A stretch of DNA of 39,227 bases from a virus, in IMG/VR virus record IMGVR_UViG_3300024262_000097, positions 1 through 39,227 of that record. One strand, given 5' to 3'. Below, in pieces: positions 3,485 to 34,870 of the stretch. Every line of letters starts with the position of its first letter. The stretch's first letter is position 1. A program made the position numbers and the translations under genes. The notes under the pieces are model-generated. The model made no database searches. It had not been told where the DNA came from and was given only the letters and a program-made list of their open reading frames with translations.

Positions 3485-3554
3485 CGATTCACTAAGCCAA
3501 ACGCCAATGCGACTACGCCCTAAGCCCTACACTAAGAAGGAGAGAGAAAGCTAT

Positions 3555-4019
3555 ATGAACTTTATTAAGCCACTAAGCACTACACCTATGTCCATTTGGG
3601 ATAACGAGCAGTTCCAGCAAGGAGAAGCTCAGTACGACGACTCAACTTCAATCTTCATGAGCCAACGCCTCAAGAAAGATGGAGCCTCTACCACTGTTAA
3701 GTTCACAGATCTCCAGTACCAGACTCAGCCAGAGGAGAAGCACGAAGCATTCAAAGATGACGATGGCAAAGCATACGTCTTCTACTTCGAAGACGGAGAC
3801 AAGGAGATCACCTACGAAACAGCCAAGAAGAACAACATGTTCTACAAGGCCATGCTGGAAGCTAAGGTAGAGATTGGTGAGACTATCACTATCACACGAA
3901 ACGGATTAGAGTTTGATACTAATTATGTCATCACGCGGCCAGAAGCAGGCTTTGTTCCTCCTACACCGAATGTCGAAGAGAAGAAGCCAGAAGAGCCAGC
4001 GACAGACGTGCCGTTCTAG
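3555..4019 (+). CDS. Putative single-stranded-DNA-binding protein
   Basis: The 154-residue product begins MNFIKPLSTTPM at ATG 3555, with AAGGAGAG about a dozen bases upstream. An in-frame ATG at 3507 would put that ribosome site inside the gene. The body alternates short beta-rich segments (STTVKFTDLQYQ, ETITITRNGLEFDTNYVIT), compatible with an OB fold. The C-terminus is Pro/Glu-rich and ends ATDVPF, like the acidic D-x-P-F tip by which SSBs recruit partners. It is the first gene of the plus-strand replication operon. The SSB role is inferred from tail and context. Confidence 0.55.
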   Translation: MNFIKPLSTTPMSIWDNEQFQQGEAQYDDSTSIFMSQRLKKDGASTTVKFTDLQYQTQPEEKHEAFKDDDGKAYVFYFEDGDKEITYETAKKNNMFYKAMLEAKVEIGETITITRNGLEFDTNYVITRPEAGFVPPTPNVEEKKPEEPATDVPF

Positions 4020-4020
4020 T

Positions 4021-4212
4021 ATGGAATCTACAGAAACGGTAATTCAAAGAGCACTCGGACAATGCGAGGAAGAGTATAGACGCTACACAACTGGCTACGT
4101 AAGCGAACTTCTTGATGATGTTAGCGCACTCAAAGCTCAGGTCGAGAAACTTACCGAAGTGGTTGAGCTTACACAGGGTGCTGAACTTGATGAAATCCTG
4201 TTCAACCAATGA
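4021..4212 (+). CDS. Small coiled-coil protein, 63 residues
   Basis: The ATG at 4021 directly follows the stop codon of the SSB-like gene. The protein (MESTETVIQRALGQ...) is helical, with a heptad-like stretch SELLDDVSALKAQVEKLTEV suggesting a short coiled coil. It ends just before the terminator at 4223. The function is unknown; it may dimerise or bind the upstream gene product. Confidence 0.65.
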   Translation: MESTETVIQRALGQCEEEYRRYTTGYVSELLDDVSALKAQVEKLTEVVELTQGAELDEILFNQ

Positions 4213-4222
4213 TCTATCCACA

Positions 4223-4244
4223 GGTCCCCTTCGGGGGACCTTTT
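4223..4244 (+). terminator. Rho-independent terminator after the SSB-like operon
   Basis: A perfect 7-bp stem, GGTCCCC (4223-4229) with GGGGACC (4234-4240), is capped by a TTCG loop and followed by TTTT. It separates the SSB-like unit from the structured RNA downstream. Confidence 0.85.
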
Positions 4245-4265
4245 GGTTTGTGCTACACTGTATAG

Positions 4266-4371
4266 GCGGAATACATACAACTGTTAAAGACTCTCACGGT
4301 TAGGGATTCGGGACTAAACCCCCGACGGCAAGTATGTAGCCGACGCAATCCCTAACCTTGAGAGTTTTTTT
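4266..4371 (+). ncRNA. Structured RNA: three-way junction with possible pseudoknot and terminator
   Basis: This non-coding stretch folds convincingly. An outer stem pairs ACTCTCA (4290-4296) with TGAGAGT (4359-4365). A perfect 11-bp stem pairs GGTTAGGGATT (4298-4308) with AATCCCTAACC (4347-4357). Inside are two hairpins: CGGG/CCCG (4309-4312/4321-4324) and CGGC/GCCG (4326-4329/4339-4342). The loop GTATGTA (4332-4338) is fully complementary to TACATAC (4272-4278) upstream, allowing a pseudoknot. A run of seven T (4365-4371) makes it a terminator as well. It could be a small RNA or a cis-acting attenuator or riboswitch for the primase gene 15 bases downstream. No known class is recognised. Confidence 0.7.
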
Positions 4372-4385
4372 AACACACACTTTTT

Positions 4386-5183
4386 ATGAGCGAGAACTTA
4401 ACCTACCCTTGGGCCGTGGCATACCATCAAGCCGGTTGGTGTGTTCTCCCTGCAAAGAATAAGTACCCACTCAAAGCACTGGGAGGTTGGAAGCAGTACC
4501 AAGAGAAAAGACCTACACTAGATCAGGTCCAGGAATGGTTCTGTGAGGCTCCAAATGACGCTCAGATCGCTTTGGTAACAGGAAAGGTGTCAGGTGTCAC
4601 GGTGATTGATATCGACACGCACAAGGAGGGGTGCAAAGGAAAGAAGGGAGGGGACTGCAAATGTAATCCAGAAGACCCAGCCAGTCTTGCTTTGGCCATA
4701 GGACTGTCTATGCAAAGCAACACAGGGTCTGGTGGATACCATGTATTTTGTACGTATGAGAATGTCGGGAACTCTGTAGGTCTGGCCCACCCACAACTAG
4801 ACATCAGATCAGATGGCGGAATCATTATTTTGCCACCAAGTTTGCATGAGAATGGAAAAAACTATGTCTGGGATGAGCTTTTAACGTGGCATCCAGACAA
4901 TATCAAGGCTTTACTTCCCTTCCCTACCGAATTAAAGACACTTTTATACAAAAAGAAGAAGACAAATTGGAATTTAGTTAGTGGGGGAGTGGGAGAAGGG
5001 AAGCGCAATGATGTTGCAACGAGCGTAGCTGGGAAACTTATCGGAGCCTTTGAGCGTGATGAGATACAGGCCGCATGGAACCTACTGTTCGCATGGAACA
5101 AACAGAACGAGCCACCACTACCAGAGGCAGAGCTACGCCGAACATTTAAGTCAGTGTTAGACAGTGAGTATGGCAAACAATAA
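4386..5183 (+). CDS. Bifunctional primase-polymerase (Prim-Pol) with PriCT-like C-terminus
   Basis: The 265-residue protein has the N-terminal Prim-Pol layout: 'AGWCVLPAKNKYPL', then VTVIDIDTH with the catalytic Asp pair near residue 75, TGSGGYHVF with the catalytic His near residue 119, and DIRSDGGIIILPPS. The C-terminal part (GEGKRNDVATSVAGKL ... PLPEAELRRTF) resembles a primase C-terminal (PriCT) domain. It would make primers for phage DNA replication. It overlaps the helicase gene by 20 bases or fewer, so both are one translational unit. The start ATG at 4386 has no clear ribosome site and follows the structured RNA directly. Confidence 0.9.
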   Translation: MSENLTYPWAVAYHQAGWCVLPAKNKYPLKALGGWKQYQEKRPTLDQVQEWFCEAPNDAQIALVTGKVSGVTVIDIDTHKEGCKGKKGGDCKCNPEDPASLALAIGLSMQSNTGSGGYHVFCTYENVGNSVGLAHPQLDIRSDGGIIILPPSLHENGKNYVWDELLTWHPDNIKALLPFPTELKTLLYKKKKTNWNLVSGGVGEGKRNDVATSVAGKLIGAFERDEIQAAWNLLFAWNKQNEPPLPEAELRRTFKSVLDSEYGKQ

Positions 5184-6267
5184 GCCACCAGAAATCGACT
5201 GGAGCCAGTGGAAAAATGACAACCCACTGGTTGAGGTTGTAGATCGGCCACCACTTACATCTTTCATGGTGGATGAAAAGACTTTGGGAGAGAAGGATAT
5301 CAAGCCAACACAATGGCTGTTCCCACTCCTACTGCCATCACCTGCTCTTGTTGGTCTTGTTGGTCGACCAGGGTGCTACAAAACATTCTTTGGCCACTGG
5401 ATAGCTAAGAGGTTGTCAGAGGGCAAGGATTTGTTCGATCAGTATGACGAACTACCACAATGGGACATAGACCATGATAAAGAGCCAGTCAATACGCTAA
5501 TCATTGAGGAGGAGATGGGAGAAGAGATTGTGCAAGAGCGCATTCACACCCTAAGCCCCCACGACGAGTCTCGCGTCCATTGGATGATTAACTCTGGCTT
5601 CAAACTACTCAAGGGGAGGCGTGAGATTGATGAGGAAAGGGTAGATGAGCTAGTCAAGATCATCGAGGAGAAGGAGATCAAGGTACTCATACTCGACCCG
5701 TTTATCTCTATTGCTGGTATGGAGGATGAGAATGACAACGCCGAGGCAAACTATGTAATGAAGATTCTCTTAGATAAGTTTGTTAATAATGGGCCAAAGA
5801 TCACAGTTATCTTCATCCACCATCCTTCAAAGAGCTCAGATGGCGACGTAATGCGAGGAGCAGGGGATATCCTTGGGAAGAGCTATGTTGGCCTAGCCCT
5901 GGATAAAGTGAGCAATGACGGAACATTGGTAAAGGTGAAGTGCATCAAGACCCGTTGGTACTGGCCCAAGACATTCACAATGGATTTCAGAAAGAACCAA
6001 GACAAAGGAGAGAAGGATGGTCAGCTAGAGTTCGTGTACATAGGTAGAGAGGACAAACCCAAGACAAAGAAGGATGAGCTAGGCCAAGAGATTGTCTATT
6101 TCCTAAAACGTGAACCCGAAGGATTAACTAAGGTTCAACTGTCTCGCCTGTTGGATAGGAAAGGAGACCCAAAGAAGGATCACACACTAGGAAAAGCAAT
6201 GAAAGATTTGCAGTCAGAGGGTGAGGTAGTCATGGACCCCAAAACGTACGTTTATTCGCTAAAATAA
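5170..6267 (+). CDS. RepA-like hexameric helicase (AAA_25)
   Basis: The protein is about 365 residues. Walker A is GLVGRPGCYKTFF near residue 60 and Walker B is IKVLILDPF near residue 175. IFIHHPSKSS and MRGAGDILGKS match the order in RepA/AAA_25 replicative helicases. A KaiC/DnaB-type fold would unwind DNA ahead of the partner primase. The C-terminal 70 residues look like a winged-helix domain. The start is ATG 5170; a GTG two codons earlier (5164) is also possible. The start lies inside the 3' end of the primase gene, indicating translational coupling. Confidence 0.9.
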   Translation: MANNKPPEIDWSQWKNDNPLVEVVDRPPLTSFMVDEKTLGEKDIKPTQWLFPLLLPSPALVGLVGRPGCYKTFFGHWIAKRLSEGKDLFDQYDELPQWDIDHDKEPVNTLIIEEEMGEEIVQERIHTLSPHDESRVHWMINSGFKLLKGRREIDEERVDELVKIIEEKEIKVLILDPFISIAGMEDENDNAEANYVMKILLDKFVNNGPKITVIFIHHPSKSSDGDVMRGAGDILGKSYVGLALDKVSNDGTLVKVKCIKTRWYWPKTFTMDFRKNQDKGEKDGQLEFVYIGREDKPKTKKDELGQEIVYFLKREPEGLTKVQLSRLLDRKGDPKKDHTLGKAMKDLQSEGEVVMDPKTYVYSLK

Positions 6268-6282
6268 GCGAAGAAAAGCAAA

Positions 6283-6479
6283 GTGCGGTACCCCTAAAAA
6301 CAATATTTGGCTAAAATTAGCAAAGAAATACATGTAGGGGGTACCGCAAACCCCTATAGATATATCTATAGTGCGGTACCCCCCCCTGCTAACCCATCCT
6401 TGAGGGGGGTAAACCTTAAGGGTTTACACCCCCTCGTCAGGGTCTTGGGCCGAGAAGTGTATAATGGATGGGGTACCGC
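6283..6479. repeat. Four alternating GCGGTACCCC repeats: possible replication origin or operator array
   Basis: The motif GTGCGGTACCCC occurs at 6283-6294 and 6371-6382. Its inverse GGGGTACCGC occurs at 6338-6347 and 6470-6479. The orientation alternates direct, inverse, direct, inverse. AT-rich stretches lie between copies (6349-6370 and 6481-6510). A perfect TATAAT at 6460-6465 lies just before the last copy, so that copy overlaps the expected transcription start of the nuclease gene. Placement right after the primase and helicase genes suggests an origin. Repressor operators are the alternative. Confidence 0.65.
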
Positions 6480-6510
6480 AGTTGATAGTTTAAGTAATGA
6501 AATATTTTTT

Positions 6511-7114: not shown

Positions 7115-7144
7115 TGTTATGGGTTGGGTTGCGTGGAGTATGAT

Positions 7145-7405
7145 TTAGTCCATGCCGCAGAAAGTGTGCGGTTTTAGTTTGTGCTTTGTCATTAGGGCAG
7201 TTATGTTGCCGAAAAGAATATCATCTTTGAGCGTTTCAGTGGTTGCAAGGTGTTTTATGAAGTCAACTATTTTGTGTATGCCCCGGGTGTTACGTGTAAA
7301 GCCTTGAAAGTCATTATATTTGTCTTTGAGATCATACCATTGGATATAGGGTTTTTGTGTATCATGGAAGACAACGCGCACGGAGTCATTTTGGAAGATG
7401 GTCAT
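7145..7405 (-). CDS. Hypothetical 86-residue protein, last gene of the small-gene cassette
   Basis: The protein MTIFQNDSVRVVFHDTQKPY... is mixed alpha/beta. It has Lys-rich helices (VDFIKHLATTETLKDDILF) and ends TFCGMD. The ATG at 7405 has no Shine-Dalgarno site. It is preceded by the recurring leader AACCGCTAAAACCG also found before the 75-residue gene. No family is recognised. Its placement in a switch region suggests a host-interaction or early role. Confidence 0.65.
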   Translation of the reverse strand: MTIFQNDSVRVVFHDTQKPYIQWYDLKDKYNDFQGFTRNTRGIHKIVDFIKHLATTETLKDDILFGNITALMTKHKLKPHTFCGMD

Positions 7406-7489
7406 ATTTGATTCGGTTTTAGCGGTTAAGCCCGCAAGCGGTGAAAAACTAACGGCGCAGGGGTCGCTAGTTTTCGCACGTTTGAGGGG

Positions 7490-7717
7490 TTAGAATGAGC
7501 CCTTAACGGTGTTATCTTCGACGTTGAGCCATTGACCGTCAACGTAGTATTCAATGGTTACGGCGTTGTCCTCGGTCGCTCCGTCTTCGGTTGTCATACG
7601 TGAGAGCCAGAGGCGAAACTGAGGGGTTTCAAGTTTGAGATCGTCTGCTTGACCTTGTGCAAGCGTTGGGAGTTGAGAGAGTAGAGCTTTTAGTGCTTCG
7701 TGGGTTGCGTTTGTCAT
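7490..7717 (-). CDS. Hypothetical 75-residue protein
   Basis: The N-terminal half is helical (MTNATHEALKALLSQLPTL). The C-terminal half is beta-rich (AVTIEYYVDGQWLNVEDN). The ATG at 7717 has no ribosome site. Its leader contains CTTAACCGCTAAAACCG, shared almost exactly with the leader of the 86-residue gene. A hairpin with AAAACTA/TAGTTTT arms lies between the two genes. No family is recognised. Confidence 0.65.
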   Translation of the reverse strand: MTNATHEALKALLSQLPTLAQGQADDLKLETPQFRLWLSRMTTEDGATEDNAVTIEYYVDGQWLNVEDNTVKGSF

Positions 7718-7755
7718 AAAATTGATACGGTTTTAGCGGTTAAGTCCGCTATATT

Positions 7756-7784
7756 CCAGGCGCAAATGGTTGACTTGCGCCTGG
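7756..7784. promoter_or_regulatory. Perfect 10-bp hairpin between small genes
   Basis: CCAGGCGCAA (7756-7765) and TTGCGCCTGG (7775-7784) pair perfectly around a 9-base loop. No T-run follows in either direction, so it is more likely an RNA-processing, stabilising or protein-binding element than a terminator. Comparable hairpins lie at 8271-8300 and around 7444-7476, one per intergenic gap of this cassette. Confidence 0.7.
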
Positions 7785-7795
7785 TGTATAGTTGA

Positions 7796-7966
7796 CTATG
7801 CTTTAGCAAAATTGCACTTTACTTGTGAATCGTCTAACCCGTGACGCTTAAGCATTGATGCTTTAGCTTGCCTACACGTTGGATAAGCATTGGTTGAACA
7901 CTCATAAGCATAAAACCCTTTTAAGTTTTTAAGATAGATATCTATCTTTTTATAGTTGCGGTTCAT
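7796..7966 (-). CDS. Small basic protein, 56 residues
   Basis: A short gene from ATG 7966 to TAG 7796. The protein MNRNYKKIDIYLKNLKGFYA... is basic, with two Cys (ECSTNAYPTCRQAK) and a C-terminal SQVKCNFAKA. It follows the 79-residue gene by a spacer made entirely of the repeated TTGACTA leader. No family is recognised. Position, spacing and sensible composition favour a real gene. Confidence 0.55.
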   Translation of the reverse strand: MNRNYKKIDIYLKNLKGFYAYECSTNAYPTCRQAKASMLKRHGLDDSQVKCNFAKA

Positions 7967-7989
7967 ATAGTTGACTAGTCTTTGACTAT

Positions 7990-8229
7990 TTAGTTAGTTG
8001 TAATCCAGTTCCAGCACTTAACAAAGCCTTTTTGAGTCAAGCGATCCAGCATGCCTTGTGCAAGGTATGATGAACCGTAGTGTTCAAGCGCATTAAATGC
8101 TTTGAAATCACCAGTTGATACAACGTGCTTGTTATGGTTCCAGTAGTTCATCACAAGCGATCGGAAGTGCTCCGTGTCATTTTTCATTGTTTGAAAAGAT
8201 ACGGAGTTTATGATTTCTGAGTATTTCAT
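7990..8229 (-). CDS. Hypothetical 79-residue protein
   Basis: The protein is MKYSEIINSVSFQTMKND... with 'HFRSLVMNYWNHNKHVV', 'HYGSSYLAQGMLDRLTQKGF' and 'CWNWITTN'. The arrangement of a helix, a Gly-containing turn and a basic helix could be a small winged-helix, but this is not established. The ATG at 8229 is preceded by the cassette's CTATAACCGTATCAA leader rather than a ribosome site. It is one of five to seven small genes transcribed leftward from the promoter near 8900. Confidence 0.65.
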   Translation of the reverse strand: MKYSEIINSVSFQTMKNDTEHFRSLVMNYWNHNKHVVSTGDFKAFNALEHYGSSYLAQGMLDRLTQKGFVKCWNWITTN

Positions 8230-8398
8230 AAGTTTGATACGGTTATAGCTTTGTTATAGTTCGCTATATTGCGCGCGCTATGGTTTAGAATAACGCGCGT
8301 GGTATAGTTGACTAGTCTTTGACTATTTAGAGTTACTTTTTATCGCTTGTTTATGGGGTAAAAATGATTCCATTGACTATTCTTTGACTATTCTTTAG

Positions 8399-8758
8399 CT
8401 ATTTAGCTAGTAGCATTTTGCTAGGATTTGTCGGATGTTGTTTTAGCTTAACTCCACGGCGTGCAAGTTCGTAGCACTCATCGTCCCAATTCTTCTTATT
8501 GTTTCCACGTTGTAGAACTTGTGAGTTTGACAAGTGAGAAAAACGGGCCTTTGATTCTCTGTCTAGTTCTGTTTCAACAATTGAGTTGTGGTCTAGTGTT
8601 AAGTCTAGCCTTAATTGGCGCAAGTTGTCCGTGGTCCATTCTTTGAGTTCTTCTTCCCATTCTTCTTTTTTCCATGATGTACTTGTATATTCCACTTCTT
8701 TTTTCCCGTTGTTGAGTTGTGGGTGGTAAAGTGTGAAAAATAGTTTTTTTGTATACAT
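8399..8758 (-). CDS. Hypothetical charged 119-residue protein
   Basis: The protein MYTKKLFFTLYHPQLNNG... is highly charged (KKEEWEEELKEW, LDRESKARF) and helical, with a basic C-terminus (RRGVKLKQHPTNPSKMLLAK). It is the largest gene of the leftward cassette and the first robust one after the promoter at 8888-8915. No membrane segments or catalytic motifs are seen. No family is recognised. Confidence 0.7.
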   Translation of the reverse strand: MYTKKLFFTLYHPQLNNGKKEVEYTSTSWKKEEWEEELKEWTTDNLRQLRLDLTLDHNSIVETELDRESKARFSHLSNSQVLQRGNNKKNWDDECYELARRGVKLKQHPTNPSKMLLAK

Positions 8759-8763
8759 AGTGT

Positions 8764-34445: not shown

Positions 34446-34526
34446 TACGGCTTTGCAAGATGCAGTGTATAACATGTGGAAAAAGGTGTCAACAGGTAAG
34501 AAAAGACCCCGTTTATAGGGTTTATC

Positions 34527-34600
34527 TACACTCAATTTTTACCTCTATTAACACACAGTCGCTTTGCCTAGTGCGCCTCTAAAGGTAAAAATTGAGTGTA
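34527..34600. repeat. Perfect 18-bp inverted repeat
   Basis: TACACTCAATTTTTACCT (34527-34544) and its exact complement (34583-34600) flank a 38-base spacer. It directly follows the last codon of the gene at 34601-34870, at the end of the leftward operon. It could act as a terminator or processing hairpin, or as a cruciform protein-binding site. No T-run follows. Confidence 0.85.
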
Positions 34601-34870
34601 CTAATACAGTCTCACTATAGTGTGCTTCACTGGATCAATAGAAGGCAATAAGGAGCTGTCAAAAATGTTATCGGTAACACCATGAAATAAGAACAACACA
34701 TCTGGTCTTTTACCGTGCAGTGATATTCCACACACTGACGATGCATGTCCAACACATCTAACATTATTAAAATTGTGTAATGGAAAATCTGGTGGGACGA
34801 CCGCGAGTATAAGGTGATAATGCTTAGACGCATGGTCTAAAAATCTCAGTATCTCATCGTTAGTCAACAT
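34601..34870 (-). CDS. Hypothetical 89-residue protein
   Basis: The start is ATG 34870, one base after the upstream stop. The protein MLTNDEILRFLDHASKHY... has a helical start, then 'VVPPDFPLHNFNNVRCVGHASS' and 'VLFLFHGVTDNIFD', an alpha/beta pattern. No family or catalytic motif is recognised. It is the last gene of the leftward methyltransferase operon. Confidence 0.65.
   Translation of the reverse strand: MLTNDEILRFLDHASKHYHLILAVVPPDFPLHNFNNVRCVGHASSVCGISLHGKRPDVLFLFHGVTDNIFDSSLLPSIDPVKHTIVRLY

Follow-up and report, generated by a model that had tools for sequence, protein, structure and literature searches.

What kind of element is the strongly folding stretch that lies just ahead of the primase gene of an uncultivated phage, and what may it do for the genes behind it? 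We address this for positions 4266-4371 (plus strand) of the window, which is the whole stretch of DNA analysed here, the 39,227-base IMG/VR virus record IMGVR_UViG_3300024262_000097, classed as linear. Upstream lie an SSB-like gene (3507-4019), whose product has the C-terminus DVPF, and a 63-codon ORF (4021-4212). The SSB label is weak: matches to PHROGs SSB are marginal and were obtained only for the counterpart in a second phage, L101. The unit of this gene ends in an intrinsic terminator with a UUCG loop, located by a terminator scan at 4222-4246 of the plus strand (hairpin 4222-4241), which forms the upstream boundary of the element. Downstream, on the same strand, an operon opens with a Prim-Pol/PriCT_1 primase (4386-5183) followed by an AAA_25 helicase-like ATPase (5164-6267), both assigned with Pfam and PHROGs. 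The setting between a terminator and the primase gene, as given in the preliminary description of this locus, is thus confirmed. The interval between the helicase and the next gene (6281-6483) repeats a TGCGGTACCCC-like motif, as inverted and as direct copies, and is predicted to fold very strongly on either strand; it is possibly an origin, an operator or a second structured element. A Shine-Dalgarno-like sequence is missing at 23 of the 24 gene starts checked in the window, so that translational control of the primase, considered because it lacks one, was dropped; T or AT often stands directly before gene starts in the window, possibly a hint to the host.

The element folds into a 22-pair stem (P1) around two hairpins and carries a tail of seven T, as established by a base-by-base check. 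The 5' strand of P1 spans 4286-4308 and its 3' strand, which runs into the U-tract, 4347-4369, both on the plus strand as are all parts described here and both delimited by folding and pair counting. Within P1, a perfect 11-bp part (4298-4308 with 4347-4357) and a 7-bp outer part (4290-4296 with 4359-4365) are separated by the only mismatch, a C/T at 4297/4358, and the outer part is lengthened by one G.T and three A-T pairs that reach 4286/4369. Hairpin A (4309-4324) is closed by CGGG (4309-4312) and CCCG (4321-4324), and hairpin B (4326-4342) by CGGC (4326-4329) and GCCG (4339-4342) around a loop at 4330-4338. The junction strand ACGC (4343-4346) was delimited by comparing the window with two further phage sequences, L101 and L115, and has GC before A at its end in all three. 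The T7 tract occupies 4365-4371, and a stable stem directly followed by a T-tract is what characterizes an intrinsic terminator. The minimum free energy of the element is -42.3 compared with -22.1 +/- 3.0 in dinucleotide shuffles (z -6.8, reached by 0 of 200 shuffles). The two stems, the two hairpins and the seven terminal T of the preliminary description were all borne out, and its general view of a structured RNA with a three-way junction, pairing potential and a terminator-like tail is supported.

Part of hairpin B may also pair outside its own stem. The sequence GTATGTA in its loop (4332-4338) is fully complementary (7 of 7) to TACATAC at 4272-4278, the UACAUAC of the RNA; the perfect match had already been described, with a spacing of 54 bases that we correct to 53. 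TACATAC occurs only once on the plus strand of the window. A 7-nt complement to either loop was found in 44 of 20,000 random 20-mers from the window (0.2%); when this particular upstream stretch was shuffled, 686 of 20,000 trials contained one (3.4%). Because of these frequencies the evidence for a pseudoknot from this single sequence is only suggestive.

The decisive evidence for the long-range pairing is covariation in a relative. L101 (IMGVR_UViG_3300006753_000027, an IMG/VR phage) was found through degenerate primase motifs and encodes a primase 61% identical to that of the window. Its element lies between an SSB-like gene and the primase, has the same architecture, and is preceded by a terminator-like hairpin and then a TATAAT box at positions that match those in the window. 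P1 is formed there by AAAGACACGAT-T-GGTTAGTGGAT with ATCCACTGACC-T-ATCGTGTTTT, hairpin A by CTGCC-TAAG-GGCAG and hairpin B by CGGTT-ACCCCAAAA-AACCG, while the T-tract is interrupted (TTTTAGTTT). The upstream sequence TTTTGGG pairs with the loop CCCAAAA, in the place of TACATAC and GTATGTA in the window, and the linker from the upstream strand to P1 measures 7 nt in both. Pair counting gave 98.6% standard pairs between window and L101; of the 37 pairs, 16 differ on both sides, namely ten in the nested helices (including two of the four pairs of hairpin A) and six of the seven upstream:loop pairs. None of 500 shuffles equalled this number of doubly changed pairs, a control that ignores relatedness and covers two sequences only; in a sliding control, shifting the partner by 1-3 columns lowered pairing to 35-48%. 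The counts were made on hand-registered alignments (A10, A11), with loops padded with N to hold the strands in register because MAFFT misaligned the hairpins. In the element region, blastn finds no match between window and L101, and the covariation argument rests on these many paired replacements in a region without such a match. In this comparative sense the conserved fold and the covarying long-range helix are shown to be real. The preliminary description had named homologues with compensatory changes as its check, and L101 is such a homologue; compensatory changes in relatives are what defines a structured RNA family with a conserved pseudoknot, here from two sequences and a probable third.

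The same comparison bears on which part of the phage the RNA accompanies. The terminases of L101 and the window are only 26% identical, whereas identity is 40% for the SSB-like protein, 61% for the primase and 62% for the helicase, and for this reason we take the RNA to go with the replication module and not with the whole phage.

A probable third copy, in L115, was picked by a structure descriptor run over the collected phage DNA. It heads a replication operon of two genes followed by a primase 31% identical to that of the window. Its P1 consists of 21 uninterrupted pairs, with 8 pairs in hairpin A and 4-5 in hairpin B, and GACAAAA pairs over the long range with the loop UUUUGUC. About 10 bases separate the end of a T9 tract from the next start codon, and the element is preceded by TTGACA-17-TGCTATTGG. 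A two-sequence model that ignores the pseudoknot missed L115 under default filters and gave it 29 bits within the locus with filters off (E 2.6e-6, from a shortened calibration). In 5.6 Mb of shuffled phage DNA, no case combined the 7-base pairing with a stem of at least 17. L115 thus probably carries the element, and only probably because its sequence is unrelated and its linker longer (19 nt). A third model with L115 was left out because strands were misplaced in its alignment. The family is thinly sampled, with two firm members (window and L101) and one probable member (L115).

Other searches returned few relatives. Rfam 15 has no family above its gathering cut-off in the window, L101 or L115, nor anything meaningful below it, which agrees with the earlier statement that the class is unrecognised. 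The exact core pattern had no match in IMG/VR, the window primase as sole query found no relatives in IMG/VR or genomes, and a model built from the window alone missed L101. Close relatives by terminase and portal (52-60% identical) are short contigs that end before the primase. A pattern drawn from the sequence shared by window and L101 hit 15 IMG/VR stretches, among which only L101 is genuine, and the structural descriptor, applied to about 2.6 Mb of phage DNA, gave strong cases only in the window, L101 and L115; its other matches were rejected as weaker or different in geometry, many of them lying in reading frames or simple repeats. The sequence retrieved for more distant primases, which came from phages and from Patescibacteria and Pseudomonadota genomes, showed no such element, and blastn of the three elements against phages gave chance matches only.

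Several other structured regions were noted along the way. Position 328-428 of L168 holds a different long-stem terminator-like structure that encloses a further long hairpin and lies roughly 1 kb ahead of a phage primase. Two unrelated phages carry branched long-stem structures that end in a T-run: one is at 648-757 of L275, the other on the minus strand of L090 (41-162), on the other strand and downstream of the primase of Roseobacter phage CRP-810. In the window itself, a near-perfect 21-bp stem with a 32-nt inner part lies between two leftward genes (34527-34600, minus strand; fold z -5.95 for 34490-34620). Small leftward ORFs spaced by repeats occupy 7140-8760, where TATAGTTGACTAGTCTTTGACTATTTAG occurs in two identical 28-nt copies at 7966 and 8303; a large noncoding RNA considered at 6.9-8.9 kb was dropped, the region being one of such ORFs separated by repeats.

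Regarding function, we consider it about an even bet that the element is an attenuator: a conserved 5' leader that contains its own intrinsic terminator and would control the access of polymerase to the primase-helicase operon. A promoter-like sequence lies directly before the element in the window, L101 and L115. In the window it is a putative extended -10 element, TGC-TACACT (4251-4259, plus strand), recognised by reading the sequence, with a predicted start at about 4266; a consensus promoter scan of the window did not list it. At the other end, the tail stops no more than about 14 bases short of where the next operon's first gene starts in the three phages, the distance from the T-tract to the primase start codon being 14 bases in the window. 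Because the T-tract abuts the next start codon in all three, there is no room for another promoter, and the likely promoter of the downstream operon is the one before the element. If that promoter serves the operon, the element is a leader whose terminator must be read through. The position between a predicted promoter and the first gene of an operon fits in the three phages. Among the functions offered in the preliminary description, the attenuator fits best, in view of the tail that abuts the start codon in all three; its ligand-sensing part is without evidence, and an antisense role is unsupported, since the plus strand of the window holds no second TACATAC target.

In such a leader, we infer promoter activity, termination, read-through and switching as follows. 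Transcription would start near 4266, and the first helix to form would join the 5' end of the RNA (UACAUAC) with the hairpin-B loop. Once RNA from about 4347 emerged, P1 would close and, together with the U-tract, end transcription, leaving a compact RNA of about 105 nt that perhaps keeps the 7-bp pairing as a pseudoknot. Read-through would yield the primase-helicase mRNA, and a factor that stabilised the early helix or hindered P1 would turn the operon on. Predicted folding of the growing transcript is in line with this order: in all three sequences the upstream:loop helix forms first and is lost once P1 completes. As long as the 3' strand of P1 has not emerged, the early helix mostly belongs to the minimum-energy structure, at a probability of about 0.9-1.0 with a dip to 0.37 at one length of L101; in the window and L101, the linker and the 5' arm of hairpin B also take part in this helix. 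Two predicted states, one early and one terminating, would correspond to the anatomy of an attenuator. The early helix differs from a textbook antiterminator in that it surrounds the P1 strand without base-pairing all of it. Since P1 is far more stable (about -42 compared with about -21 kcal/mol), an unassisted switch would nearly always terminate and a helper would be needed. In the finished RNA, the 7-bp pseudoknot is possibly compatible with P1: a fixed linker of 7 nt and a junction strand of 4-5 nt might allow hairpin B to fold back along the stem. A bolder proposal, which we hold as tentative, is that the element represents a phage regulatory RNA of a new class. Its three-way junction and long-range pseudoknot, set inside the terminator stem, would switch a replication operon in response to a signal of infection, such as a protein (primase or SSB, for instance), and the RNA would travel between phages with the replication module.

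The same features may be read in other ways. The terminator before the element, its promoter-like box and its terminator-like tail would also delimit a free-standing sRNA gene of about 105 nt. Its stable, compact product, with the 5' end buried in the pseudoknot and the 3' end in P1, would act in trans on RNA or protein of the host or the phage while the primase is served by leak-through. IsrK sets a precedent for an sRNA with a dual role through terminator read-through (PMC4825925). However, the element abuts the start codon of the replication operon in three of three copies, no alternative promoter is seen for that operon, and the loop most open to pairing in trans is engaged internally and changes freely in sequence. 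We regard this explanation as rather unlikely; such a molecule is possibly a by-product of attenuation.

A role in immunity, similar to that of satellite phage P4, could use the same pair of upstream sequence and downstream loop, if the hairpin-B loop paired in trans with UACAUAC of another nascent leader and forced termination before the replication genes. In P4, CI RNA pairs with seqA upstream and seqC downstream and terminates the leader of the replication genes (PMC4825925). Here, TACATAC is present once on the plus strand of the window and a second, downstream target is missing, a 7-base pairing is short, and there is no sign that the phages of the window, L101 and L115 are temperate, which makes this role improbable.

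Long hairpins are known next to primase genes, where they are called ssi sites. Single-stranded DNA could adopt the present fold as well, genes for an SSB-like protein, a primase and a helicase adjoin it, and the GC skew of the window changes sign near 4 kb, all of which would suit a single-strand initiation hairpin or an origin recognised by the adjoining phage primase. Nevertheless, the promoter-like box and the T-tract share polarity in three of three copies, and the skew switch coincides with the divergent direction of the genes, and we give such a DNA-level role little chance. That the element is merely an unusually long ordinary terminator, whose appearance its long stem and T-tract do have, or a chance fold, is very improbable and, judged by the L101 covariation, largely refuted, given compensatory changes in both internal hairpins and in six of seven upstream:loop pairs, a terminator already present in the upstream unit, and the 0 cases in shuffled phage DNA mentioned above.

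To our knowledge, few structured leader RNAs control phage replication genes, and most of these are from cultured enterobacterial phages. The element described here, which may well switch replication genes on and off, belongs to an uncultivated phage, and the covariation that supports it extends to the long-range pairing. It accompanies the replication module between phages that otherwise differ. As such it provides a compact test case for a pseudoknot that perhaps tunes intrinsic termination, and a starting point for searching larger metagenomes for further members of the family.

Among known systems, the closest in logic appear to be IsrK of the Salmonella prophage Gifsy-1 and CI RNA of P4, by analogy and with kinship shown to neither. 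In IsrK (RF01394), part of the transcription passes the terminator and enters the phage operon behind it, so that a single promoter yields both an sRNA and an mRNA, which adopt alternative folds (PMC4825925). The proposed read-through logic is alike, while structure and neighbours differ; the Rfam isrK model scores 11.3 bits, on the opposite strand, against a gathering cut-off of 50. CI RNA of P4 pairs with seqA and seqC of the leader, and transcription ends prematurely before the replication genes (PMC4825925). This RNA is a processed product with two targets in trans, one on each side of the RNA, whereas our element has one target, in cis, with an upstream match only on the plus strand of the window, and, unlike P4 CI, builds its intrinsic terminator from the same RNA. 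In shape, the element recalls another group of RNAs. Flavivirus xrRNAs contain a three-way junction and a hairpin loop that makes a long-range pseudoknot with a downstream strand. Both share the junction and the loop pseudoknot, but the loop of our element pairs upstream and the element ends in a bacterial terminator, and no relation is suggested. Lastly, the element matches no riboswitch family in Rfam. It shares a long-range loop pairing with attenuators and pseudoknotted riboswitches and, by prediction, may resemble them in an early helix and a terminator that form in order and exclude each other; it differs from them in that its three-way junction sits inside the terminator stem itself.
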